From the NCBI GenBank assembly GCA_021234155.1, contig JAJEKV010000005.1, positions 2,121,294 through 2,185,293 of the forward strand: a stretch of 64,000 bases of DNA, read 5' to 3'. Positions within the stretch are counted from its first letter, which is position 1. Every line of letters starts with the position of its first letter. Below, one piece after another: positions 15,259-54,084 of the stretch. A program made the translations under genes and the position numbers. A model generated the notes under the pieces. That model did no database searches, was not told where the DNA came from, and worked only from the letters and a program-made list of their open reading frames with translations. This stretch comes from Isoetes taiwanensis. Taxonomy: Eukaryota; Streptophyta; Lycopodiopsida; Isoetales; Isoetaceae.

Positions 15259-15429
15259 TCTAAAATAATATAAAACATATATGGCATTAGAATTTATATA
15301 TCTTATATTATAAAAATATAGCGTGTGCCTTCCATGGAGACCTAAATCGAATAGTTGAGGATTTGATTGACCAATGGTGAAGATGACATCTTGACTGTTG
15401 CTTCAATAAGATTCACTCAATCCGACAGT
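15259..15429 (+). repeat. dispersed module, copy 1
   Basis: This AT-rich stretch matches, in reverse orientation, the one at about 24950-25070. Shared landmarks are ATCTTATATTATAA, CCTAAATCG, GAGGATTTGATTGACCAATG and GCTTCAAT. In both places the module is followed on the same relative side by a long GGGAAA-type purine tract, so module and tract probably belong to one repeat family. Confidence 0.65.
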
Positions 15430-15932
15430 GAAGGGGTGAAAAGGGAAAGGGAAAAGGGAAAAGAGAGGGAAAATGGAGGAAAAGGGAAAAGGGAGGGGGA
15501 AAGGGAAAAAGGGCAAAAGGAAAGGGAGAAAGAAAAAAGGGGACATAAAAAAATAAAAAATAGAAAATAGAAAAAGGGAAAAGAAGAAAATAGAAAAAGG
15601 AAGGGGAAAAGTGAGAAAAGAAAAAGAAAAAGTGGGGAAGGAAAAAAGGGAAAGGGAAGAAGAAAATGAAAAAAGAGAAGGCAAAAAGGCTGAAGGAAAA
15701 GGGAAAAGGGAAGGCAAAAGGGTGGAAAAGGGAAGGAAAAAAAGTGAAGAAAAGGGAAGGGAAAAGGGCATAGCAAAAGGGAAAGGGAGGGAAATGGAAG
15801 GAAAAAAAGGGAAAAGAGAAAGGGTTGGGCGAGGTGGAAAAAGGGCGATTGGGAAAAGGGAAAGGGAAAATGGAAGGTGAAAGGGAAGCAAAGGAAAGGA
15901 AAGAGAAGGGAAGGAAGGAAGGAAGGAAAAAT
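15430..15932. repeat. polypurine tract
   Basis: About 500 bp of A/G on the plus strand, ending in a short (GGAA)n microsatellite at 15907-15930. Open frames across it are compositional. Confidence 0.9.
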
Positions 15933-15934
15933 TT

Positions 15935-16110
15935 TTAACGTCCACGGAACCCAATCGGGTTATGGGACCAAGTACATAAGGGATCAAGTCCTGACCAAGT
16001 CCAAATAAGAACATGGGCTGAAGTCCCAAACCAAAGCACAACGTGAGCTAGAACACAACCATCATGACCCGGATTAAAACCACCCGGGAAAAAACCGCTG
16101 CCAGATGACT
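15935..16110 (+). repeat. dispersed repeat with GTCCACGG...GGGAC start, copy 1
   Basis: Starts after (GGAA)n with TTTTTAACGTCCACGGAACC and ends near GAAAAAACCGCTGCCAG. A second, shorter copy is at 16571-16705, also preceded by (GGAA)n, and an ending-only copy is at 49440-49535. The family is not identified; the ends may be those of a small retroposon. Confidence 0.55.
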
Positions 16111-16490
16111 ATGGTCGCCACCGATCCAAAATCCATGCCGTTGCTCGTGCAACAAGCATATACCTTCATACCTCCAGCAGACAAGGCTTCACCAAGCAGT
16201 TCCGAACCGTAACCTCTTCACAACGGGAGTCGGAAAACAGGCGCCCCAACGCCAATCGCCCGACTGCTGGAAGGCGGCGCCGTAAAACCGCCGTGAAATC
16301 GCCCATCGGAGGTGCCTCACCTATCGCCAAAGGCGCCCGGCACTTCGTGTATGCACGCAGCGACATCCACTCGAGCACACACAGGTCGCCATCCTTCATC
16401 GCCCATCGCCCAACGCCATCCATCATCGACTCGGGCAGGCCTCGTGACAAATACTCAGGCGGGCGCCAGCGCCCCAGCGCTAAAGGCAAG
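16111..16490. other. GC-richer spacer, no gene
   Basis: Contains repeated words such as ATCGCCCATCG and GGCGCC, but no frame with a recognisable domain. It lies between two copies of the dispersed repeat. Confidence 0.4.
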
Positions 16491-16570
16491 GGCCCAAGGG
16501 GAGGAAAGGAAAAAGATAAAAGGAAAAAGAGAAGGTGAAAAAGAGGAAGGAAGGAAGGAAGGAAGGAAGG

Positions 16571-16705
16571 TATTTTTATCGTCCACGGAGACCAATCGGT
16601 CTATGGGACCCAATACAAAAGCGCAGCAAGCGGATTACTACCCGGATTAAAAAACCCTCGCCCCGAAGGGTTTTCGAGGAAAAAACCGTGGCAGCAATTA
16701 GCCTA
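16571..16705 (+). repeat. dispersed repeat, copy 2
   Basis: TATTTTTATCGTCCACGGAG start, then GGTCTATGGGACC, and a conserved block with GGATTAAAAAACC, the hairpin CCCTCGCCCCGAAGGG, TTTTCGAGGAAAAA and a final CCGTGGCAG. The hairpin block recurs almost identically at about 49489-49530. Confidence 0.65.
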
Positions 16706-16734
16706 CTGACAAACTGTTCTAATATACAAAATGC

Positions 16735-17348
16735 AAAGAGTGGGAAAATGAGGAAAAGGGAGGGGGAAAAGGGGAACAAGAAAAGGATGGAGAGCAAAGA
16801 ATGGAAAAAGAGGAAGAGAGGAAGGGGAAAAGTGCATGAGAAAAAAGGGAAGAGGGAAAGGGTGAGGAAAAAGAAAAAAGGAAGGGAAAAAGAGCATGTG
16901 AAAGGGGAAAAAAAAAGAGAAAAGGGAAAAGTGGAAGAGGGAAAGGCGGAGGAGGATGGGGAAAAAAGAAAAGGAGCATATAAAAAATGTGGAGAAATTC
17001 GAATGTAAAGGGAAGAAGGGTACGGAGAAAAGTGAAAGGGTAGAAAAGGGGAGGGAAAGGGAAAAAAATGGAAGCGAAAAAGGGGGAAGGGAAGGGAAAA
17101 AAAGCACGCGGGAACGAGGAGAGGGAAATGAAAAAAGAGAAGGGAAAAAGAGCACAGGATAAAGTGAAAGAGCACGAAAAGGTGTAGAAAAGAGAAGAAA
17201 AAAGGGCATGGAAAAAGCGAAAGAGAAAAGGAAAAGAAAGGGAAAAGGAAAGGAAAAAATGAGACGGGCGGGAAAAACATGAAAAGAGAAGAGAAAAAGC
17301 CTATTAGAAAAAGGGAAAGGAAAGGGAAAGGGAAAGGGAAAAAGGGAT
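16735..17348. repeat. polypurine tract
   Basis: About 600 bp of A/G-dominated sequence on the plus strand, ending in a small GATGAT repeat. Frames are compositional only. Confidence 0.9.
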
Positions 17349-18190
17349 GATGATGATGATGGTAAGTTCTATCCAGGTGTGGATGCAGTGATGAATTTGA
17401 CATTGACACTCTAAGTTTGAGTTAGATCATTAAAGTTTTGCTTCTTTTCAAGACTATGCTGAAGTAACTATTGCTTTAGAAGGGTGTTAAGATAGGCCGG
17501 TGCTTTGACCTGTCCCAGCCAGGAGAAGCTCTATGTGAGATTTCTATAATCCATTGTCTCCAAAATGGCTACCTGTAGTATTAGGGGATGGGAGGCCCCT
17601 GATATATGCGCTTATGGCTCTAGGGGTGACAAGACCACGAGGGCTAGATATATATGAGTTAGTTTTAGCACTTCGATCCTAGGGCAGTTTTGCACGAGGT
17701 GATGGTTAGAGAAGAGGTAGAGCAAAGGCTCCCATAGTACCTGGCTGTCACTTGAAGCTGCTATTTCCGGGAAGAAGCTTCATCAGGATCATGAGTAAGA
17801 ATTGATGCCTTGCCAAGGCTGTTCTGCTGCCAGTAGTGATTGGAATTGTTTCCTAGAGTTTGGACTTACAGTGCAATAGCTTAGGGCCGATTTTTTTTTA
17901 GGTTAGTGGGGGATGATGGTGGTTACATAAGTAGCTGATTGTAGGAAATTGAGGAATTATCTTCCATAGTACTTGGTTGTTGGGAAGAGGCTGTGGCCAT
18001 TGCTATAGTACTTTCTGGAAAAGTGGTGGCCCCCATAGTACTAATGAGCAAGGAAGAGGTTGAGAGACCTCCAATAAAGTACTGCATTAGCTGGTTGTGT
18101 ATCTTTCTGTGCTCTTCACTAAATGGGTGAATAAGGGCTTATGTACCATTTATTTATCAATAAAAATTTCTTACCCTCAAAAAAAAAGGG
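17349..18190 (+). repeat. possible polyadenylated retroposon remnant
   Basis: The stretch ends with TTATCAATAAAAATTTCTTACCCTC followed directly by an A-run at 18178-18187. The A-tail with a nearby AATAAA-like signal suggests a retroposed transcript or LINE/SINE 3' end. The phrase 'ATAGTAC' with nearby GG/TT recurs several times through 17.5-18.1 kb. No protein domain is recognisable and the 5' end is not defined. Confidence 0.3.
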
Positions 18191-23719: not shown

Positions 23720-23974
23720 GTAACATTTAAATCCATATCCATTGGCCTTAAATAAATTCGAAATTTGAAATTAAAATGGAAGGGGCGGGGAATTTTGTAC
23801 ATACCTTTGAAAAAGAAGAGATTTAGGACAATGTTCTAAAGGTTCAAACTATATCATCTGGCTGGCTGGCCGACTGGCTCCAGTCCCCGCAGGGCCCCAA
23901 GTGATAGAATATGTAGAAGCACCTCCTACCAATGTACATATAAAGTTAAACACCCTCATATTATATGTATACTC
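23720..23974. other. spacer inside the inverted-arm element
   Basis: AT-rich sequence with a short tandem CTGGCTGGCCGACTGGCTCC near 23861. A GTACATACCTTT block near 23800 recurs at about 32130. No coding region. Confidence 0.4.
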
Positions 23975-24935
23975 TTTCTTCACCCTTTCTCTTTTCCCCT
24001 TTTTTCACGCCCTTTCCTTTTTTCTCTTTTTCTCGTTCCCTTTTCCCAATTTCTCTTTTTCCCTTTTCCCCCTCTCTTTTCCTTTTTACTTTTCTTTTTC
24101 CCATAGACTTTGCAACCTTTTCTTATTTTCCCTTACCTTTTTCTCTTTTTCTCACCTTTACTTCTTACCCTTCTCATGATTGCTCTTTTTCCGTTCCCCC
24201 TCGCCTATTCTATTCCTTTTCTATTTTCTTTTATCTTTCCATTTTCCTTTTCTCCTTCTCTTTCCTTTTTCCTCTTACCTTTCCTTTATTCCTTTTCCTT
24301 TTTCCTTTTCCCTTTTTCCTTTTCCCCTTTCATCGTTTTCCTTTTCCCTTCCCCTCTTCCTTTTCCCTTTTCCCTTTCATCGTTTTTTCCTTTTCCCTTC
24401 CCTCTTCCTTTTCCCCTTTCATCGTTTTTTCCTTTTCCTTCCCCTCTTCCTTTTCCCTTTTCCCTTTTCCCTTTCATCGTTTTCCTTTTTCCCTTTTCCC
24501 TTTTCCCTTTTCCCTTTTCCCTTTCATCGTTTTCCCTTTTCCTTCCCCTTTTCCCTTTTCCCTTTTCGCTTTTCCCTTTTCCCTTTTCCCTTTCATCATT
24601 TTTTTCCTTTTCCCTTTCCCTTTTCCGTTTCCCTTTTCCCTTTTCCATTTCATCGTTTTTCCTTTTCCCGTCCCCTTTTCCTTTCCCTTTTCCTTTTCCC
24701 TTTTCCCTTTTCCTTTCATCTTTTTTCCTTTTCCCTTCCCTTTTCCTTTTCCCTTTTTCCCTTTCATCGTTTCCCTTTCCCTTTCATCGTTTTCCTTTTC
24801 CTTCCCTTTTCCGTTTCCTTTTCCTTTTCCCTTTCCTTTTCCTTTTCCCTTTTCCCTTTTCCCTTTTCCCTTTTCCTTTTCCTTTTCCTTTTTCCTTTTT
24901 CCTTTTTCCTTTTTCCTTTTCCCTTTCAAATTGAA
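23975..24935. repeat. polypyrimidine tract with CATCG-punctuated minisatellite
   Basis: About 960 bp of C/T on the plus strand, mainly CCTTTTCCC words. From about 24325 to 24800 the run is punctuated by CCTTTCATCGTTTTCC at intervals of roughly 40-65 bp, so part of it is a minisatellite. The frames of 260-325 codons across it encode only Phe/Pro/Ser/Leu and are artefacts. Confidence 0.9.
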
Positions 24936-24949
24936 GCCATAGTCAAGAT

Positions 24950-25070
24950 GAAATTTTAGTTGAAGACACGCACACATCATCTCCACCATTGGTCAATCAA
25001 ATCCTCGACCGTCCGATTTAGGGTGCGGTCCATTACACAACATTATAATATAAGATGTATGAATTTAAAT
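24950..25070 (-). repeat. dispersed module, copy 2
   Basis: Reverse complement of the module at 15259-15429, sharing GAGGATTTGATTGACCAATG, CCTAAATCG and ATCTTATATTATAA. As in copy 1, the long purine tract (here read on the minus strand) lies directly downstream. Confidence 0.65.
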
Positions 25071-29924: not shown

Positions 29925-30250
29925 TTGGTGTTGGAGTACACCCTAAAACCTCTAAATATTATTATTATTCTATGGTGTTGGAGTACACCCTAAAACCTCC
30001 AAAGTTTTATTATCATTCTATGGTGTTGGAGTACACCCTAAAACCTCCAAATATTATTATTATTCTATGGTGTTGGAGTACACCCTAAAACCTCCAAAGT
30101 TTTATTATCATTCTATGGTGTTGGAGTACACCCTAAAACCTCCAAAGTTTTATTATCATTCTATGGTGTTGGAGTACACCCTAAAACCTCCAAATATTAT
30201 TATTATTCTATGGTGTTGGAGTACACCCTAAAAACCTCCAAATCATTGTA
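29925..30250 (+). repeat. 48-bp tandem array, seven copies
   Basis: Unit starts TATGGTGTTGGAGTACACCC and continues TAAAACCTCCAAA followed by one of two endings, TATTATTATTATTC or GTTTTATTATCATTC. Seven units are readable, the last one partial. The two endings alternate irregularly, indicating higher-order duplication. It lies just before the 3' LTR. Confidence 0.92.
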
Positions 30251-35900: not shown

Positions 35901-37193
35901 TCTCTTTTTTGGGTCTAAACACCGACCCCACAAAAAAAAAAAAAAAAAAAGAAGCAATTCTTTAAACATTGTACCCAATTCAATTATGGCCAGCTAAAAT
36001 GCTACGAAATATGAATGGGCGAAAACTTAGCAAAATTTGCTTCTAGAAGAATGCCTCTACAGCTATAAGCATTTTGAACAGTGTTCGGTTGCTAGCCATT
36101 GAGCATGGTAAACTGATTTTTCTTCCTTCTTTTCTTTGTTGTTTTACCTTTACAGTGAAGATCCAGTATCTCCAGTAGACCAAGCATCTATAGGAGCAAA
36201 CAATATGCCGCAAATCTGTACATATCTATTTCTAGTATAACTTACCGACATCACTATTGCTATTCTTCTGCTTTGATTTCTAGAATCCCACTGACTCAAG
36301 CCTGCTGCAAAACTGACCTATACTGGGTCGCTACAATCCTGGCTTGGCCGATCTGGCCAGTCCTCTGCAATATGATAGCCACTCCAATTCTATCTTGGAC
36401 AATTCTAGTCTATCTGCCCAATTCTAGATGTTGTGCGCTCCTCTTTATTCGGCTCTTCTACCTCGCTTCCAAGGTTTTGTCTTATGTTTGCTGTACTGGA
36501 AGCCCTATTTACAAGTTGATTCACTCAGATATCTATTTTGTATTGCTAGAGCTCAAGAATAAGCCCCATTAAACAACAGCTTTGTAATTTCTGTGGCATT
36601 AAACACTGAATTTGATGAAAGTTTTGTTTGCTTGAACCATATGCATGGTTGATCTCTCAAAAGAGGAGGCAAATGCAAGCTCATCAGCGGTCATAGAGTT
36701 AATAAGGGCTTCTTAAATACTGCTCTTTCTTTTTCCATTTCTTTTTCCTATTCCATTTCTTTTCTTGCAGAGATTAATGCGAGCCCAATTTTCAAGTTGC
36801 ACTGAGGATGATAATATCTGTAGCCAGATTTCTTTTTTTAAATGTTATGTGTTCTTTTACGAACAATTTGAGATTGATATATTTAAAGATGGTCTTTATC
36901 TTCACGATTTCAAGTCTAAAATAGTGATTTGTCTTAGGTATCCATTTCAGCTTTTTTAGAGTTGTATTTAAATCATAGACTTAACAAAGATAGAGTGGAA
37001 TAAAATCCCATTTGACTCAAGGTTATGTAATGTATTTGAATCTCTTGAAAATTGTATGATTTTGTTGGTCATGATACAAATACAATTTAATCTTCTATAA
37101 TAAAATGCTAGAAAACATTTAGATTGGTCTATGTGCTCTAAATTGCATTTCCACTTTGTGCAACATTAACAAGCCTGAGGAAACAATACAAAC
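35901..37193. other. intergenic, no gene
   Basis: Includes a 19-base A-run at about 35932-35950 and AT-rich sequence. Nothing codes recognisably. It ends at the candidate target-site duplication of the next element. Confidence 0.5.
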
Positions 37194-37218
37194 AACAAGA
37201 TTGCGTATTAAACGGGAG
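37194..37218 (+). repeat. left terminal inverted repeat
   Basis: AACAAGATTGC-GT-ATTAAACGGGAG, matched in reverse complement by 45601-45625 with three differences. A second AAACGAGAGC follows 10 bases further in, echoing the hairpin of the right end. Confidence 0.65.
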
Positions 37219-37554
37219 CAAATCATTGAAACGAGAGCAAAAGGAATATTCCGCAAAGATTCCCTTTTTTTTTACGAAAAAGGGGGTAAAATGAGGTTAA
37301 AAAAAAAAAAAAAGATGCATGAAATTCTATTTTGACCCCCGAAATGACTAAATTTTTTTTTTTTTTTTTTGAAGGAATTGACTTTTTAAAGTGTCACTTT
37401 TCTTAGCAAAAAGAATGTTCTTAAAGTATGTTTTAAGAGAGAAACTCTAATTTCAGAGGATAAAATATTTAACAAAAAATTGAAGTAAGTCCAGAATTGA
37501 AACCAGTAGTATTCTCAAAATTTGAAGATAGAATCTTCATATTCACATCAAAAT

Positions 37555-40500
37555 TTACTGATCTTTTTCTAAGACTTCGGTTATGTGCAAAAGTGTGAGG
37601 AGTGATGAGAGAGGATCCGGGGCGTCCTCATGTTCATTTATGCCATCGTCATCACCTTCACTTCTTTCAACATCACTCGAGGAAGTGCTTGAGTTATCTT
37701 CCTCATCACTATCAACAGGCGGGTGAAGCATTGTCACCACCTTCTTCATCATCTTCTTCATAATTACAAGCTTTTTTTAAGCAAATTGGTAGTCTTAAAA
37801 GCGTAGACGATTGTCGATTTCAATTTAAAATCATAGCACAATATAGTCCGTCATTAAGGTTCAACTTCGTCCCCTACAACCCACCTTCTTGGACTTTCTC
37901 CCTTTTTCCTTGGCTTCTCATTTCTAACTCATATCTACCTTCAAAGCATTTTTCTCGGCGTGTTGCAAGCCAATGAATCTTGAGTTTAGTGACTAAGCCT
38001 TCCTCCTTGACCATGTCAAGCACTTTTGCTATCCAGGCGATTCCGACCTTTGTCATCCTCCTCGGTCGGAAGAGCAATTAGCATACCTTTGGTAATTTCG
38101 TGATATTACCTTGGGGCTCATTCCTCGTCTTGGTCCGAGGTACATGACTTCGGTCCTCCTCGTCTTCTACCAGTGCAAATGTAGCAACTTGCTTGGACCT
38201 GCTTGGTGCCGGGTTGATGGAAGGTGTTAGGCCATTGAAATGGTTCTTACAACTGCCTTAGAGCTATGTTTTGTACAACAATTTTCTGTTAGAAAGAAAT
38301 TACTCCACCACATCCGATCTTCTTCTAAGAAGTACTTAAAGCCTGAGGAAATTCCATTTTCAATGGCTTTTAAGGATGACTCGGGGTACTTTTTCTTTTC
38401 CTTGGACTCCTTAGGATTTTTGAGAGGAAGTTGCTCAGCACGTTCTATGAAGGAAGTGTGGAATATATTTAAGAAGCGTAATCCCTCGGGCGGACTCCGG
38501 TCCTTGGTTGTGGTATACTTCTTCCCTGAAGCTTTGGCCATCCTTCAAAGTAGAACTTGATATGATGTTGAAAGGTGAGATCATTCAACTTGTTCACGCG
38601 GCTTGTTCTCTGTTTGAACGTTGAGAAAAACAAACTCTCTGAAATCAGCGATCTCTTTAAGAAGATCGACCAATTTGGAGTAGGAGTGTAAGAATCTTCA
38701 ATAATTTGAACTAAAGAAGGAAGACGAAGAAAGCCTTCTTCCTTCTAAAGGCGCCTTAAAATCTGGCTGAACATTTGGTCAATCGATCATGAGTGTGGCC
38801 TACAAGTAAGAAAACCGAAGCTTCACTTTTCTAAAGATCCCTAGCTCCACTAACATGGCACAAAGACGCAAAAGAGTGTTTGATTCTTGTTCTCCCTTGT
38901 AGTATTGTCAAGTTGCAGATAAAGCACTGGTGGTAATTGCTCTTGCTCGCACAGGACCTTGTTAAGAATTGTAATTGTGAGGTTGGGGTCACCATGCAAG
39001 TTTGGATACGTCAAAAAAACTTTGCACCTTAGACTTCCTTTGAAGACCATAGCTCCTACAAGGTGGACCTTAACAAAACATTCCTCCGCACATCTTTAGG
39101 AATGTTCAAGAAATGTGGTAGAGTTGTTTTTTTTTTTGTCCATTCCATCAATCACAAAGAGACATGTATTGCAGTGGACGTTCAAGAGCTTTTTTTCTAT
39201 GCTTGGCAAGCTTTCTTCTCTCTGCTTGTTGTTCACGATGTCTGGCAAGGTTCTGTTGCACAATATCTGTAGAAGAAATCAGGTCAAAGCATTTTCTCTA
39301 AAACAAGTGAGAGATTGGAGAACATGAACTTACTTCTTTCGACCTCTGTCTTTGCAGTTTCTCGTTGACTCTTTAATTACGCACCTCGAGCAAGCAGACA
39401 TTCTATGTTTTCTAGGAATTTTCACAAGACCGAATTCACTTTTCCACGATCACGGTGAAGTGTGTGAGTAAGAGATGTCTTTGAAGCTGAGTGCAAGTCT
39501 CTTTGTACTCATTAAAAACATCTTTTTGGTGATGTTATCGGTTAAATGATACATGTTCTTTGTTAGGTAGCTTCTCACATGTTCTCTAAAATATTTCTCC
39601 ATCCGGACACAAAGCTTAAGGGCATGCATGGTTACAACTCTTCTTGGTCCACAATGATCATCGATTCTTTGGATTTTTGTCCGATCTTTTGTGTATTCTA
39701 GACATTCTTGTGGACCCTAAGCGGTGGACAACCATAAAACATTTCGGCAAACTTCTTGACGGTTAATGTAGTGCAAGAAGGTGTTCTGTGTCGGTCTTAC
39801 ATGATAAGCTAAGTAGGCATTCCAGTGCGCCAATGTCATGGAACCTGTAGTTGTCTCTAACCGCCGTAATTTAGCCATGTTAAGTCTGTTGATGCAACCC
39901 AATGAGCAGCATTTAGTTCTCAAAAGTCTCCTCATTTTCTCTTTCATCCATAAGATTTCTTCTTCTTTGAGGAGCAAGCCCTCAAACCAAAATCCACCTT
40001 GAATTTCTTTTGAAGATTGGCTTGAGAACATGTAATCTCTTTGTTCCTCGTTGGTGTCTTCATCTTCCTGATGAAACTTCTACTGGGGTGACTTCCTCTG
40101 TCACCGGTGGTGTGCTTGTAGAGGAAAACAGACCACGTGAAGTTGTTCCCGGAATAGGCGGGGTACAAATGTTAAAGGGTGGTGATGGCCCATAAGAGGT
40201 TGTGGCATCACCGTTCTTGTACCATCTTGAAAAGGAGTTCTTGCAAACATCTCCTTTAGAGCGGACTGGAATTCCAGAATCCATGTGTCACAACCCTTGT
40301 TGTGTGAAGAGGAGTGCATCTTTGGAGCTTCGTCCTCATTTGTAGTGAAGTCCCGGTGAGAGAAATTGTAGTGAATCTCCACGGTCTTACGTGTTTTCTG
40401 TGGTTCCTTGTATGTTTGCACGAAGGAGGCGAAACTACAAAAGGGGGTAGCTTGTTCTTGAGCACCCTTTGTTGTGGAGCTTCAGGAGTCCCGGGATGGA

Positions 40501-40779
40501 GCAAAGGGTGGTGGCAGCCCGCTCCAACTAGTGGTGATTCTTTGGAAGGAGATGCCGGGTGGCCGCCTCTGAGGACTTGGTGGCGGTTGGAAGGGTGGTG
40601 GAAGTCTGATACGGCCGGACTCCTCGGTGTGTCTTCGAAAGCAAGAACGATGAAGCGAGGTAGGAGCCTGAGAATTCCGGTCTTGAAGAAACGACGTTGG
40701 TCCCAAGCGTGTCCTCAGAACCAGACGAGCTTGAGACAACGAAAGGTGGTGGAAGTTTGTTGACGAAGCGGTTTGTCAT
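37555..40779 (-). pseudogene. transposase-like protein, DUF7869-type motifs, frame-damaged
   Basis: Read on the minus strand, the pieces give a family pattern I associate with DUF7869, found in mobile-element-like genes of many eukaryotes. In order: start 40779 with a low-complexity N-terminus where NKLPPPFVVS-like text occurs twice; a Cys segment KCCSLGCINRLNMAKLRRLE (about 39920); HRMSACSRC (about 39390); Ala/Lys/Glu helix with HREQQAERRK; VIDGMDKKK with Asp at 39147-39149; GDPNLTITILNKVL; LYLQLDNTTRENKNQ with Asp at 38907-38909; GIFRKVKLRFSYL then VGHTHD at 38786-38803; a tail with WIAKVLDMV and an acidic C-terminus ending at 37555. Three acidic sites fit a DDE/D-type nuclease core (inference). 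At least six frame shifts or stops, so inactive here. Confidence 0.6.
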
Positions 40780-41115
40780 CTTAAGAACTGCAAAACAGTG
40801 TAGAGTTTAGATAATGTTTCTCTCTTTAGTTGAGCTTTTCTTATTCCGTATCACAAGCCCGCCTACTAAAAGTAGAACTTCCTGCAACAATTAAGCGAAA
40901 GGCAAACTAAAAGCTATTCCCGAATACACTAGAGCAGAACAGTAAGGCCAAACGTATTCCACTTCACATAGAAAACGAGCAAGACGGAATGGACACCTTT
41001 AAAAGGAAATTTTGGCGCCTTCAGTTGCGTATTCCAGTCTCTGAGCTGAAGTCGCCAGCGCCAGCGCCTTCGAATATAATATTCAGAGCTGTATTCCGAT
41101 ACTCATAGAGAAAAC
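40780..41115. promoter_or_regulatory. candidate divergent promoter region
   Basis: About 340 bp between the two oppositely oriented modules. It holds several half copies of the TATTCCG/GAATAC motif (for example near 40850, 40917, 41088) and no coding sequence. Transcription in both directions from here is inferred from gene layout only. Confidence 0.4.
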
Positions 41116-41164
41116 ATGGAGAGGTGAGTAAGAAAGTACAAGGTACAATCATTTGTGTGTCTGT

Positions 41165-41480
41165 TTCTTATTCCGGAATACATTTACCTTCCTCGAAGGC
41201 GAGTATGTCCTCGGACACACATTCGCCTTCCCTCGGCGAAAGTGTATTCCGGGAGGGGAAGGCGAAAGTGTATTCGGAATACACTTTCGCCTTTCGAAGG
41301 CGAATGTGTATTCCGGAATACACTTTCGCCTTCGAGAGAAGGCGTAAGTGTATTCCTAATACACTTCGGGCCAGAGAAGGCGAAAGTGTATTCCTCGACT
41401 TCACTTTGAAAGGAAAGTGTATTCTCGAATACACGTTAAGCCTTCCTCAAAGGCGAAAGTGTATTAGAATCACACATTCG
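41165..41480. repeat. palindrome cluster 1 (GTGTATTCCGGAATACAC family)
   Basis: At least eight nested palindromes. The best are a perfect 35-base palindrome at 41259-41293 (GGCGAAAGTGTATTC arm) and a 40-base one with a single mismatched pair at 41295-41334 centred on TTCCGGAA. A second word, AAGGCGAA/TTCGCCTT, extends most arms. They could fold into strong hairpins in DNA or RNA. They lie inside the putative first intron of the plus-strand gene. Confidence 0.9.
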
Positions 41481-43434
41481 GTGTTCTTTTGTTTTGTAAG
41501 TTTGTTTTTCCGGGTGATTTTTGTAGTGACTTTAGGTGTTTTTTCTGCTTTTTAAAACTTGTTTAGACCTGTTTTTTGTCAAGATTGCGTGTTGTTTTGG
41601 CATTTTGGTCCTCTTTTTTGCCCTTTGTTTTTCCCTTTTCGCAAGACATTTTGTATTCGGAATAGTTTTTGCCACTTGCTTTCTCTACAAGATCGTGTTT
41701 ACACACAATTTTACCTGCATAAGAAGGCGGCAAGAAACAACACAAGAGAACCGTTAAAATCCCAACGAAACCGCACACCCACAGAGAAGGGTTGAGGAGA
41801 CATCTGCGCCGCCATCTACGGCTTTCAAACTCAATGGTTTTTACAAGGGGTACCACGGAAAGTACAAAGACACTTACTTTCCTACATGTCCGTCTTGAGT
41901 GCCGAGCAAAAAGGTACGATGAGAGGGAATTTGTTTGCATGGGCACCATCCAAATTGCGGAGTGAAGTAGCCGGGAGTCCGCCCAATGAGGGAGACTGCC
42001 TTTTCTCCACATCCCAAGGCTTTTTATTCATGTTGATGAATCCTATTTTAGAGTGGCGAAAGTAAATCCTCGCCCTTCCGTATACAAGTATGTTGCTCAC
42101 TACATCAGCAAAGAGGTCGCCGCCATCATCAACTATGTTCGGCACAACGAAAGCTTAAGACTTCCCCACAGCCGAGTCCGGTGCCGAGGAAGAGGATGAG
42201 CAAATCGAGCCCGAAGCAGTTCCTCATCACAACTGGGAGTCCATCACAACCGGGCCAGGCCACCGCACCACCACCACCAAAGAAGCTGACAGGGACAATT
42301 GTCGCTAAAGAGCCTAAAAAAGCAGACGGCCTTAATTGCGGCAGAGGATATTTCCGAGGAACCTAAGAAGAAGAAGGGAAGGGTAAAGCACCTGGTGTTG
42401 CTATAAAGGAAAAAAGTTGACAAGACAAATTGAAAAGATGGAAGAGATTAACCTCGCACAAGTTTGTGCAAGGTGTAATTTATTTGCCACCACTTCAATG
42501 AAGCTTCCACCAAAAAATGAAGCGGGTGAAAGGCCACTTCAGGTTCGCAAAATTTATGCCGATCACTTAAGGAACCCGAAAGACGAATAAGGAGCAATCC
42601 AAATGCTCATGTGGCCCCAATAGTTGTCCTTGTTGGCCGTGGAAGAGTGCAAAACCCCCTGGGACTATGATGAGAAAAAACAGAGACCTACACTCACTAC
42701 GCCTTGGGAGGCAATCACAGCCTTTTAAGGCAAGAAGGCAACTTTATAAAGAGAAGAAGAACCCGAGGTACCTCTCCGATCCTCTCTTTCTTGCCAAGCT
42801 TGTGGTCTTACCGATGAAGAAGCGAAAATCGCTGCAACACCCACAATGCCGCGACAAATCTAATATAAACTAAAGATGAGCTTCGTCGACAAGATCCGGT
42901 TCATGCACAGGGAGTACGTAATATTCAAGGAAAAGTACGGTGAGGACCTGAAGAAGCCAGCATTTTCCTTGGAGCTTAAGGAGGCGTGTGCTATTGAATG
43001 CTGCCTGAAATATGACGAGGCCAACAAAAGGCAGTCTCTCATTGGCCACGACAACTGGTTCCAGTTAGCTTTTAGAGATGGCAAGGTAAGCACAAAATGT
43101 ATTCCAGAATAGCAAATCAACTATTTAACGTGAATCTTCTTGAACAGATTTGGGAACTCCAGGACCAGATATTTACAATGTTCGAGCGAGGGGAGTTAAA
43201 GAGCAAGGGAAAGGAGACAGCTAAGAAAAAGCTCGACGCACCCAAAAAGAAAATGACCATTACCGTCACATGGGAAATGCGGGGCTTCTCCGACCGCGGA
43301 GCTTCTCGAGCGAAATCTCCAAAAAAAGTTGTTGATAAGGAGTTTAGCCTAGAAGAAATGTCAAAGGAATTACACAAGTAAGTTTTCTGACACAAACATT
43401 AGTTATTGCATGTTAGATTCCCAAAAACATCGGC

Positions 43435-43640
43435 GTGGCTAGTGTATTCCAGAATACACATGCCTTTCTTTACACGGGCAATGTGTATTCCGGAATACAC
43501 ATTGCTTGTCTCTAGAAAGGCATTGTGTATTCGAATACACATTGCCCGTGAAGGAAGGCATGTGTATTTCGGAATACACATTGCTCCTCCTCAATGTTGG
43601 CCCCGTATTCGAATACGGATGCGCCCCTTTTAGAGAAGCA
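43435..43640. repeat. palindrome cluster 2
   Basis: Five or more copies of GTGTATTCCRGAATACAC or TGTATTCGAATACA with arms extended by GGCAATG/CATTGCC. It lies right after an exon donor (GTAAGT at about 43379), that is, inside another intron of the same gene. Single copies occur in the other introns at about 43094, 43706, 44468 and 44512. Confidence 0.88.
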
Positions 43641-45579
43641 ATGTGTTTGTCCCGTAATAGAACTATTTTACGCATATTGTTTGGGTAGCATCACAAGTTA
43701 ACGGTTTGTATTCCGTATACAATTAGCTTGACTTGTATTTGTTTTTCTTTTTACGTTGCCTTCATTCTTTTCGTTTAAACTCATTGTTTCCTTTAACGCC
43801 TTTTGACCAAAAAACGCCATAACATGTCAAACATGTTTGATGGAGCAGCCTAAACGCCGACACATGGGAAAGGTGCAAGGAACTCTACCCAATTGCCACA
43901 TCCGACGAGCATTGTCCAATATTCACCAAATTTTGAGGGTCGGGTAATTACACTTAGAATTCCTTCTCTCACTTTACAAACGATCTCTTGACAGTTGTTG
44001 TTTTGTTTTTCTTAGAGCAAAAAGAAAAATAAAGACCTACCCGAGGGCTTTTTGTGAATTTGGTTAGAACAAAGACGGGAAGAGAGGTCGTTATCGAAAG
44101 AAGAACTGCTTGAGCCGTAACCATCCGACTACGAGAGATTCTCGCATGTTTGATCAAAACAATTTATATTCAATCATTCATGGTGATTGCAACGAACCTT
44201 GTCTGAAACGGTTAAGCCACGAGGACTTTACTTTGGTTATTGCTGATCTTCCTATGGGTTTAAGCTTAAAGACAAAGATATCGATTACCAGCCCTTCAAA
44301 TTTTTTCAGAGTTTAATGCTTTTATTGAAGGAATTAAGCAGATCTCAACGGCCAAACATTGGCGTTTAGTTACGCTCCATTCGAGCATGCATGCGGCTTG
44401 GTGGAATCAGCTTTCAAAAATCACTTTGGTTCTCCATTCAGTGAGATATGAAAACCTTTGTGCGGTAAGTCTTATTCCGAATACAATTACTTTTCTCTTT
44501 AATAACGTAGTGTGTATTCCGGAATAGTATTTCCTCGCTTTCGGTTTTTCAAGTGTTTTCTTGTTTTTTGCTAATATCACTTTTATATGCTTCACTAGGT
44601 ACAAAATCGAACATCAACTACCATGGTGGAGGACCAAGGTTGCTCGAAGGTAGAGTACCTTCATGTAGCTTATTGGAGTTTTGATGGGAAGAGGACCATG
44701 GATCACTTTTAACACCTTTGTCAAAACTTTTCAAACGCCCTAGAGTTTCCAGCAGTCTTACGAAATTGCAGGGACCCAAGTGCACAAGGCGTGATTGTGA
44801 ATCACTACCGTAAACCACAAAAGCTCATCAACCATCTCCGGACATGTTCTCGGCCCGTGAGATTGGGTACTTGATGCTTTCCTCGTTCCCGTACTACTAT
44901 CGCATGTGCACTTAAGAAGGGCCGCGAACCGTGGTAGCCGCGGATATTGATAAGGAGGTCGCAGGCATTTTGTGAAGATGAGATCGGGCTGCCTTTACCT
45001 ACTTTTACCGTGATGAAAATCGGGGAGTTAGGGGCCAAGTCTTCATCCGATTATGCTAAACTAACGCCCTCGAGAGATACACCTCCATTCTCCACTCCAC
45101 TAGACGATGAGGGCAACCTTTGCAGAGCTTAAAGAAGTAGCTTTAGCTACCATTCCGTAGAACAAGGAGGATACAAAACTCAAGTCCCCAAAAAAGGAGA
45201 AGATAGAAACGTAAGGACCCAGATGGCGAGAGCAAAGAAAAGAATGAGGAGGACTATGATGTAGATCTTTGACTCATCAGATATTAAAATTATCATTATT
45301 TATTACAATGAATCTTCAATATTGATGTACAACAATTTATTAAAAACATAGTACTTTTTTTTCCTTTCTATTCTGGTGCTTGTTTTTTGTAATGCTTTCA
45401 GTCTCTTCAAGTCTATGCCTAAATTTTGCTATTTTTATGATTTGTGTTTCATAAGTACAAAGTTTTCGTCTAATAATGGGCCAAAATGGCATGAAAAAAA
45501 ATGCAAACCTCTAGAAATTCTTAACAACTATCAAAAAAGGCTTATTTTAGAAACTTGGTGTTTTTTTAAAGGGAATCTT

Positions 45580-45625
45580 TGAAACGGGAGTGATGCAACA
45601 CTCCCGTTTAATTTGCAATCGTGTT
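45580..45625 (-). repeat. right terminal inverted repeat with internal hairpin
   Basis: 45601-45625 is the inverted partner of the left end. GAAACGGGAGTG-ATGCAA-CACTCCCGTTT at 45580-45608 is a perfect stem that includes the inner part of the TIR. Confidence 0.65.
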
Positions 45626-45629
45626 AAAC

Positions 45630-52073: not shown

Positions 52074-53936
52074 CTAGCCCCCACATGCTGAAAGATCCCT
52101 GTTATGCTGCAGCAGTGCCGGATTGAGAGGGAGGGACGGTCCCCCTCTCACAGCCGCCCTAGCCGCTAACGGAAGCGGAGGCGGAGGCGCTGCCAAGAAC
52201 GAACATCCCACCTGCTTCTTATTTCTTGGTCGCAAATTAGCATCGTGGTTCAAGCAGCTTAGTACTAAAGGTTTGAAATACAAATAACCTGTGCCCAATT
52301 CTTCCAACTGCTTTTTATAACCCGTGCCCAATCCTTTCACGATCAATTGCTTTTCACGCTCATATGGTTTACTAATATCACCACATAAGATATTCACAAA
52401 TGTTACCCCAAAAGAGTAGACGTCAATATTCCTATTGTAATGACCATATTCATCATTATCTGACTTCAATTCCGGTGCCATGAATAACATTGTACCTCGC
52501 AAATTTGTGTTAGCCCTCCTAGTATCAAATGACTCTTTGGATATTCCAAAATCTGCTAGCTTGGCAACAACGAATTGTGGAGACCAAGAAGAATCCAATG
52601 AAGTATTCAGTAAAATATTGGAAGGTTTTAGATCCCTGTGCACTATGTCAATATCATGTAGATATGACATTGCCTTAGCAACCTGATGCATGATATCTAA
52701 TGCCACAAGCACTTCAAGTGGTCTTCCATGAGGTCTTAGGTCAGTATCTAGCAACTCCATAAGCATTGATCCATGAGGTCTTAGGTCAGTATCTAGCAAC
52801 TCCATAAGCATTGATGTGTCAGGATAGCCTATGACTTTAACAATATTAGGATGGGAAACTTGAGAAAGCACTTTTTGTTCAGCATCCCTATCTCCCTCGC
52901 GAAAAAACGTTTTTAGTGCTAGTACCTCACCCATCCATTCAACCTCCTCTACCATACCATAAGAACCCCTGCCTATGTCTCTCTTGCTGGTGATACCATG
53001 AGAATTTATGAACGTGGGCTGATTTCCACCTGTCCCATATTTACTATTCAAACATCCCAACAACAACAATCGATCATTCGGCATTTTAAGAGTCTCGAGT
53101 GCGTGTTCCTTCAGATGTTTGAGGTCTTCAGAGGCATTAATTTTTAGTGCTTCTGAGCTAGCCAGTTCAAAATCAATGCTCATATCTGGTGTTCCCAAAA
53201 TGGATACTATAAAATTAAGCAAGCTGTCTAGGTCCTTGTGAATCCAAATAAGTTCGGTGCTTATTTCGCCCAAAAGAGCCCGACGTTTCCAATTTTCCTT
53301 TTCACAAGAGCGTAGGAGGCGTAATCCAGTCTCGAGACAATGGACCAAATCTACCATAGCCGAGCTACATACCCAAATGTCATGATGTTGAGCCTCTAGA
53401 TTCTTCCACTCTCTTAGATACTCAACTACTTTATGCATACATTCAGTGAGAGAAGCACATTGTTTGGGATTAATGAATACCTCTGTTGTATCTAATTCTG
53501 AGCAGATTTTAAGGCCCTGCTGGCATGCAGCTATGAAAAGAGCAGAACTTCTTGTTTTAACATCAGTTGAAATACTTACATTTGGTAGTAACTTACAGAT
53601 ACCATCCGCAATTGTGGTGGATCCCTTTGCAATATCACTGATAATTCTCTCCAATTCATCTGGGTCAAGATTATCACATGCCTCTATAAGATTTGCGGCT
53701 ATTTTTAAATTACTTACTCCCCTTCTGGTATCACATGCCTCTATAAGATTTGCGGCTATTGTCAAACTTGCTCCCCTTCTGGTATGACATGCCTCTATAA
53801 GATTTTCGGTATCACATGAATTTTTGGTATCACAGCATGCCGCTATAAGATTTACGGCTATTGTCGAAACTACCCTTCTGAATTTTGATTCTGGTTGATT
53901 TGCATCTATTGTAGGCTTCGGAAACATGAAACCCAT
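52074..53936 (-). CDS. plant protein kinase with N-terminal helical region
   Basis: The longest real coding exon of the window. The kinase domain has GRGSYGMV (residues 322-329), ALK with Lys342, HRD at 433-435 in IVHRDLKPSNILL, ADFG at 461-464 and MAPE at 486-489, so all catalytic residues are present; Ser/Thr specificity is likely. Residues 376-390 are an exact-type tandem copy of 391-405 (MLMELLDTDLRPHG twice), a 45-bp in-frame duplication inside the hinge region. Residues 30-90 contain three degenerate NLIEACDTRRG units. Residues 130-290 look helical, as in cytosolic kinases with a four-helix-bundle-like N-terminus. No signal peptide or membrane segment. Splicing at Q575 (52212) is likely, so the Pro/Ala-rich end to 52074 is probably intron read-through. 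Start chosen as first ATG; a short upstream frame overlaps it. Confidence 0.9.
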   Translation of the reverse strand: MGFMFPKPTIDANQPESKFRRVVSTIAVNLIAACCDTKNSCDTENLIEACHTRRGASLTIAANLIEACDTRRGVSNLKIAANLIEACDNLDPDELERIISDIAKGSTTIADGICKLLPNVSISTDVKTRSSALFIAACQQGLKICSELDTTEVFINPKQCASLTECMHKVVEYLREWKNLEAQHHDIWVCSSAMVDLVHCLETGLRLLRSCEKENWKRRALLGEISTELIWIHKDLDSLLNFIVSILGTPDMSIDFELASSEALKINASEDLKHLKEHALETLKMPNDRLLLLGCLNSKYGTGGNQPTFINSHGITSKRDIGRGSYGMVEEVEWMGEVLALKTFFREGDRDAEQKVLSQVSHPNIVKVIGYPDTSMLMELLDTDLRPHGSMLMELLDTDLRPHGRPLEVLVALDIMHQVAKAMSYLHDIDIVHRDLKPSNILLNTSLDSSWSPQFVVAKLADFGISKESFDTRRANTNLRGTMLFMAPELKSDNDEYGHYNRNIDVYSFGVTFVNILCGDISKPYEREKQLIVKGLGTGYKKQLEELGTGYLYFKPLVLSCLNHDANLRPRNKKQVGCSFLAAPPPPLPLAARAAVRGGPSLPLNPALLQHNRDLSACGG

Positions 53937-54084
53937 TTTGGTAGTTGATCTGGTTGACTTGTATGAAGAGCTGTGGCAGATCTAGTGATTGTGCAAATGC
54001 GGAAGTCCTTTTTGGATTGCAAGTCTTTGAGAATCTGAGTGCAGTATACTTTTCGGATGGCCGTAATACTTTTCCTTCTCCCAC

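Follow-up and report, generated by a model that had tools for sequence, protein, structure and literature searches.

A probably Sola-like DNA transposon of Isoetes taiwanensis with palindrome arrays and a gene for a ParB-like methyltransferase protein

The locus analyzed here raises the question of what a gene of bacterial type could do for a plant DNA transposon. It is located at positions 37194-45625 of the window, i.e., the whole stretch of 64,000 nucleotides that was analyzed (Isoetes taiwanensis, assembly GCA_021234155.1, contig JAJEKV010000005.1, positions 2,121,294 to 2,185,293). A preliminary description had proposed a dead copy of a eukaryotic transposon with terminal inverted repeats (TIRs), which carries a DUF7869-like transposase module and its own ParB-methylase-like partner. 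Stretch 37194-45625 is a complete DNA transposon, and there is good evidence for the element itself, for its architecture and for its repeated occurrence. The most economical reading, with a probability of roughly 0.6, is that the accessory protein would bind palindrome arrays of its own element and methylate its own DNA. The features are collected in Table 1.

The ends were defined by the TIRs, the target site duplication (TSD) and the ends of other copies. The TIRs match at 22 of 25 bases, as had been described, and a chance origin was ruled out, because none of 40 shuffled versions of the two end regions (2 kb each) reached 22 matches (maximum 19). Both flanks carry the 4-bp TSD AAAC. The hairpin inside the right end was also verified; its energy of -18.1 kcal/mol is identical in 19 of 19 copies, the window included. 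The last 56 bp (45570-45625) show no difference among 17 copies, compared with an average of 5.8% for 56-bp windows. In the same comparison the difference is 2.0% for the first 56 bp, and one internal 56-bp window is likewise invariant. The right end may be preserved by selection for mobility in trans.

Further copies were searched in the genome from which the window stems (1.66 Gb in 1110 contigs). With a left-end query of 1207 bp and a right-end query of 726 bp, the best 40 of 1726 and the best 40 of 1496 candidates, respectively, were scored, and both sets included the window. The left-end matches began at query base 1 in 38 cases (the others at 2 and 39), and all 40 right-end matches finished at the last base of the query. 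Twenty further copies were retrieved (rows 2-20 and row 22 of the left-end list, row 21 being skipped). As the best left-end matches they are biased towards young or similar copies, and the ParB side played no role in their choice. Eighteen of the 20 were complete, with lengths of 8253-8559 bp; they have the two modules enclosed by the same ends, and their flanks differ. L025 was retrieved without its right end. An exact 4-bp TSD was present in 16 of the 19 further copies having both ends, the failures being L018, L021 (three of four bases) and L024, and its sequence differed among copies (AATA, AAAT, ACTC, TGCT and others). Thus, ends and target duplications, which the preliminary description had left to be defined, are matched by other copies, and its view of one element with two divergent modules was substantiated. 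In the copies examined, apart from the deletion in L018 described below, the modules were not found separately and the TIR match was not missing.

The minus-strand module indeed turned out to be a gene for a DUF7869-like transposase. The Pfam profile PF25273 (DUF7869) matched with an E value of 1.7e-25 in a single read-through frame and of 2.9e-31 on hand-joined frames, and VIDGMD, LQLDN and GHTHD follow one another in this order as a DDD-like set. At 38904-38918 an indel hot spot was observed, where the codons preceding the D of LQLDN carry small indels or other changes in 12 of 19 copies. In the genome, all 150 scored places (the best 150 of 9902 candidates) exceeded the Pfam cut-off for DUF7869. 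No DUF7869 match was found in 14 control genomes, no relative in the viral contigs searched with the DUF7869 core, and no paper in a literature search for DUF7869. The transposase would cut at the TIRs.

The TSD length was used to place the element among the superfamilies. The TSDs of CACTA, hAT and Mutator elements are 3 bp, 8 bp and 9 bp long, and these superfamilies were rejected because the TSDs are 4 bp long here. Kolobok and piggyBac were also rejected, because they have TTAA as TSD (PMC9587614, available part), whereas the TSDs of the present element are variable. According to the available part of PMC10741241, Sola elements have a 4-bp TSD, mostly 2-9 kb, TIRs and a DDD transposase, and they were found in moss and are uncommon in flowering plants. 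The present element shares the 4-bp TSD (exact in the window and in the 16 further copies) and the length, and its three motifs would have the catalytic roles of a DDD transposase, the Pfam label being only DUF7869. With the 4-bp TSD and the size, the DDD-like set fits Sola as described there, and the element is probably an 8.4-kb cut-and-paste DNA transposon of Sola-like type. A scan with Rfam at gathering thresholds gave no match.

The plus-strand module contains a gene with a ParB-like and a methyltransferase part. A first protein search with a hand-joined composite that included low-complexity stretches gave no match among the 7994 candidates scored. With cleaner composites, the ParB-like half matched the homologues P0001-P0004 (E 4.9e-35 to 2.1e-34, 35-36% identity, 47-48% query coverage) and the methyltransferase half matched P0005-P0007 (E 3.5e-50 to 2.1e-39, 61-76% identity, 43-51% query coverage). 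The Pfam profile PF01555 (N6_N4_Mtase) was detected above its cut-off in P0005-P0007 (E 1e-16, 5.2e-18 and 6.1e-16) and in one unjoined frame of copy L028 (E 3.8e-17), and under the cut-off in the joined frames of the window itself (E 0.0048). Beta-class methyltransferases have motif IV ahead of motif I. The same order is present here (DLPYGF, then LDAFSGSGTT) and, together with the PF01555 match, it characterizes the protein as a beta-class N6/N4 methyltransferase. DLPYGF was found in some frame in 17 of 19 copies, and in the window copy it is not contained in any single frame. The plus-strand motifs of the preliminary description, LGGNHS, HGDC and ADLPMG, are all present, but the last one is a frame-shifted reading of this motif IV. 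The best NCBIfam match to P0006 was the adenine methyltransferase CcrM, with an E value of 1.7e-12 under its equivalog cut-off. The likeness to CcrM and other beta-class adenine methyltransferases thus consists of the motif order and a profile match under the cut-off, and, unlike in CcrM, the methyltransferase is preceded by a ParB-like domain, and the gene is eukaryotic with putative introns. No relative was found in the bacterial and archaeal contigs searched with P0006 or in the viral contigs searched with P0001 and P0006, and a search of solved structures gave no relevant match.

ParB/sulfiredoxin-like domains have the motif order PIVV strand, GGNH and GLTDEEA..HN. This order is present in the aligned window sequence and P0001-P0004, and the name was chosen because of it and of a weak match of an L028 segment to the ParB profile TIGR03764. 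A PHROGs search with the ParB-like part gave one weak ParB match (E 0.046), ranked after a family of unknown function (E 0.0042). Thus, of the earlier designation as ParB-methylase-like, the methylase part is borne out by homologues above the profile cut-off, while the ParB part has a weaker match under the cut-off. P0001-P0004 all terminate at the residue at which the window exon is followed by a GTAAGT donor, an indication that the intron is old. The short intron at 43086-43147 contains the palindrome-like sequence GTATTCCAGAATA. P0005, the source of which is an ENA contig of 901 bp, has 92.7% identity to locus L030:8822-9190; some public record therefore contains close kin.

The next feature analyzed was a palindrome that is repeated within the element. 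The sequence GTGTATTC occurs 19 times in the window, and all 19 occurrences are within the element; shuffles gave a mean of 1.04 and a maximum of 5. In 19 copies (159,690 bp) 407 half-sites were counted, with a variable array size of 16-30 half-sites per copy, and none was found in the flanks of 18 copies (28,742 bp). They are placed between the divergent genes and in the putative introns, with one per copy in the transposase gene; the putative ParB-methyltransferase exons of the 19 copies contain no half-site. The 18-bp palindrome GTGTATTCCGGAATACAC has 2585 exact occurrences genome-wide, irrespective of position, and the reversed control has none. Among 174 palindrome spacings below 130 bp, 110 were 38-44 bp, and 72 of these were 41-42 bp, about four turns of B-DNA. 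No relative was found in the viral contigs searched with the palindrome. The presence of palindrome arrays in every copy examined is a new observation, and the palindromes are candidates for the accessory protein's own sites, with an anatomy similar to that of the VANC target arrays in VANDAL transposons of Arabidopsis.

To what extent the two genes occur together was analyzed with lists that contain the top of each ranking, i.e., the best 150 of 3184 methyltransferase candidates, the best 150 of 9902 DUF7869 candidates and 83 scored of 3063 ParB candidates. Within 12 kb, 20 methyltransferase-DUF7869 pairs were found, versus 0.33 expected by chance. Nineteen of them were divergent, and 15 of these 19 were separated by 5.1-6.1 kb. 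For ParB and DUF7869 there were 15 pairs within 12 kb (0.18 expected), all of them divergent. Every tenth methyltransferase match was taken as a fairer sample (15 loci), and the transposase was at the predicted place in nine, always divergent. In addition, three hand-picked loci of 9.9 kb each (L029, L030 and L031) were inspected. L031 has the transposase and represents a second family with 75-77% DNA identity to the window family. It contains 12 half-sites, most of them between the genes and in the intron, and its closest palindromes are 29 and 41-43 bp apart, weaker sites being excluded from these figures. In L030 no transposase was found in the stretch, which is split by an insertion and ends upstream inside the ParB gene. 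Taken together, the divergent gene pair is kept in most copies retrieved and in other families.

Selection was analyzed by comparing the subfamily of L024 and L028, which have 445 shared differences, with the majority of the other copies. The ratio of nonsynonymous to synonymous substitution rates (dN/dS) was 0.22-0.31 in two segments of the transposase and 0.19-0.22 in the ParB exon; the last methyltransferase exon gave 0.39. The approximate Fisher p values for the differences common to L024 and L028 were 0.008 for the transposase, 2.7e-11 for ParB and 0.042 for the methyltransferase. Per 300 bp, the shared differences amounted to 5-15% between about 40,500 and 44,100, where the array, the N-terminal part, the ParB exon and the intron array are located, in contrast to 0.7-3.8% left of about 40,500 and 1.7-3.4% right of 44,100, where the exceptions were one window with 7.3% at 44,694 and the last, 32-base window with 0. 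Therefore, the array and the DNA-binding half underwent a single joint change, and the idea of a cassette rests on this one event.

The reading frames are broken in the copies examined, and L028 and others retain frames of 200-441 codons. In the window copy, 160 of 196 short indels were at most 2 nt away from indel sites of at least two of 16 other copies, compared with 22% of positions. In these 17 copies short indels were 2.4 times enriched near CHG (48% of events, 20% of positions) and were also enriched near CG, and substitutions were likewise concentrated near CHG. Homopolymers do not explain this, as runs of at least three contained 13 of the 48 one-base deletions found in the window copy, versus 20% of bases. 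The recurrence of indel sites despite differing flanks and the CHG enrichment indicate assembly error at least in part, and base-calling error at methylated cytosines is the likely cause of part of the indels. Deamination would also give substitutions near CHG, so decay may have contributed, as may deamination itself and inherited shared indels. Plain decay as the only cause was rejected because of the recurrence and the clustering, and the assembly cannot settle whether the frames are intact. The earlier designation as a dead copy is thus unsafe, and the indel bias near CHG bears on any pseudogene call in this genome.

How could the two genes and the arrays act together? The accessory protein would bind the palindrome arrays via its ParB-like domain and would methylate adenine (or cytosine N4) within or near them. 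This would mark the promoter and the introns of the element; its most likely purpose would be to counteract silencing by the host or to adjust the expression and timing of transposition. The selection on the genes and the anatomy of the arrays are compatible with such marking or protection. The copies, the DUF7869 match and the methyltransferase homologues support the underlying picture of the preliminary description, a eukaryotic transposon with its own ParB-methylase-like partner. Several observations weigh against self-binding and self-methylation. The TIGR03764 match of the L028 segment (E 1.1e-4) reached only 21.9 bits versus a curated cut-off of 143.75, and the domain is therefore named ParB-like only; Pfam gave no ParB match, P0001 and P0003 match no ParB profile, and the predicted structure of P0001 is uninformative (pLDDT 33.5). 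In the every-tenth sample, six of the 15 loci were without a transposase in the 2.4 kb examined. In the 6.2 kb upstream of L029 no DUF7869 was found, and the locus has a single GTGTATTC without a palindrome array. The subfamily contrast is made up of two copies, and L018 is a deletion derivative that has lost about 4 kb with the array and the ParB-methyltransferase block and has kept both ends and the transposase region. Lastly, the array could serve something else. L029:6228-9073 is also the ParB-methyltransferase locus of lowest identity (63% to P0006) among the best 150 scored, its methyltransferase frame is open, and it may be a lone or host-adopted gene.

One alternative is that the palindromes are unconnected to the ParB-like protein and are sites for host factors, DNA that forms hairpins or a source of small RNAs. 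The single-strand folding of the array is far better than that of shuffles (z -14.2), but such folding is expected of any series of closely spaced inverted copies; the variable array size and the gene without array in L029 would also fit, in contrast to the preferred 41-42 bp spacing and the divergence of array and ParB exon as a single block, and this alternative is rather unlikely. Dam methylation times the transposition of IS10. Similarly, the accessory protein might be a transposition cofactor instead of an anti-silencing factor, with methylation marking newly replicated copies or with the array as an internal enhancer for synapsis. The anatomy would be the same, including the pairing with the transposase, and CcrM as best match of P0006 points in the same direction, but the arrays are between the genes and in introns, away from the ends, and a cofactor role is considered unlikely. 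It is highly improbable that the accessory gene is a passenger acquired by chance: L018 has kept its ends after the loss of the block, and for the majority of the accessory genes in giant Ectocarpus transposons no function is known (PMC12477816, available part), but dN/dS is below 1 and other families have the same divergent layout. Nested insertions are present in L030 and L031, but two unrelated elements nested by chance were ruled out by the 18 full-length copies with differing flanks, and the probability that nesting or an assembly artefact produced the arrangement is negligible.

Accessory genes of this kind and the idea of self-marking are already in print for algal transposons. The passages of PMC12477816 on Sola1-1_Ec32 of Ectocarpus describe a gene for ParB plus a DNA methyltransferase opposite to the Sola1 transposase, and suggest that the protein binds and modifies its own transposon. 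The present element is alike in having a ParB-like plus N4C/N6A methyltransferase gene on the strand opposite to the transposase, a likeness by description, not by sequence; Sola1-1_Ec32 differs in its brown algal host, its size of 21.5 kb and its protein of 1104 amino acids, and palindrome arrays, present here, are unmentioned in those passages. Similar ParB-methyltransferase-like proteins occur in transposons of other hosts, green and red algae (Iyer 2011; Petroll 2025, both as cited by the available part of PMC12477816). A literature search with partial coverage found no land-plant case of a ParB-methyltransferase transposon. The closest system that the element would work like is the anti-silencing system VANC: in Arabidopsis, VANC21 binds dense arrays of a motif located upstream and within introns of VANDAL21, the transposon that encodes it (PMC5735166, available part). 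Common to both are an element-specific short motif in dense arrays of variable copy number, upstream and in introns, beside an element-encoded protein that binds the motif in VANC and would bind it here. In contrast to the present element, VANC works through methylation loss and its motif copies have one orientation, and the string 'palindrom' is absent from the main text of PMC5735166 as available.

A more far-reaching reading is put forward tentatively. It would make the element a plant transposon with bacterial-type self-recognition, in which the ParB-methyltransferase would read helically phased palindromes in promoter and introns, write adenine or N4-cytosine methylation and thereby stay active despite silencing by 5-methylcytosine. 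The array and the DNA-binding exon would be exchanged between subfamilies as one cassette, and the system would parallel VANC by convergence, using a covalent mark where VANC uses demethylation. If this is true, the genome of a land plant contains a DNA methyltransferase of bacterial type, encoded by a transposon, at no fewer than 150 scored places, with about 3000 further unscored candidates, and also its probable target sites. The disputed questions of a sequence-directed role of adenine methylation in plants and of whether transposons write marks on themselves would become testable, and the palindrome offers an exact probe of 18 bp with which binding and methylation could be assayed.

Table 1. 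Positions of the transposon and its features in the window.
Feature	Position	Strand	Basis or remark
Whole transposon copy	37194..45625		8432 bp; TIRs, TSD and ends common to other copies
Left TSD AAAC	37190..37193		perfect match to right-flank 4-mer
Left TIR	37194..37218	+	25 bp
Transposase gene	37560..40806	-	ORF (open reading frame) maps; approximate limits; no evident intron; frames disrupted in assembly
DUF7869 profile match	38553..39080	-	PF25273, E 1.7e-25; coordinates derived from matched residues
GHTHD, putative third catalytic residue	38786..38800	-	string in 19/19 copies
LQLDN, putative second catalytic D	38904..38918	-	string in 7/19 copies
VIDGMD, putative first catalytic D	39138..39155	-	string in 16/19 copies
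Palindrome array (GTGTATTCCGGAATACAC type) between divergent genes	41164..41480		
ParB-like + DNA methyltransferase gene, several putative introns	41790..45272	+	limits approximate
ParB-like domain and subsequent helical region	42530..43085	+	P0001-P0004, E 4.9e-35 to 2.1e-34; LGGNHS at 42704-42721
Short putative intron GT..AG, 62 bp	43086..43147	+	homologues P0001-P0004 continuous across this point
Putative intron 2, 3' limit approximate	43378..43850	+	GTAAGT donor; second palindrome array 43442-43584
Methyltransferase, first part	44068..44464	+	HGDC 44179-44190; motif IV 44242-44259
Putative intron with further palindrome sites	44465..44598	+	P0005 homology starts past the same junction
Methyltransferase, second part, motif I	44599..45272	+	DWVLDAF 44861-44881, then TTIACALKKGR 44893-44925; P0005-P0007
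Right-end hairpin, 11-bp stem, overlapping TIR	45582..45609		folding energy, kept across copies
Right TIR	45601..45625	-	25 bp
Right TSD AAAC	45626..45629		perfect match to left-flank 4-mer

Outside the element, Gypsy-like and PPR-like frames, named by eye, were observed in the window and fit a land plant. Long low-complexity tracts rich in purines or pyrimidines, with a strong strand skew, are present at 1241-2386, 15406-17421 and 23950-24992, and a 48-bp unit is repeated in tandem at 29926-30243 (6.7 copies, 94% matches). The minus strand at 52077-53981 contains an open frame of 635 codons, protein kinase-like by eye, with an internal perfect 45-bp tandem duplication.

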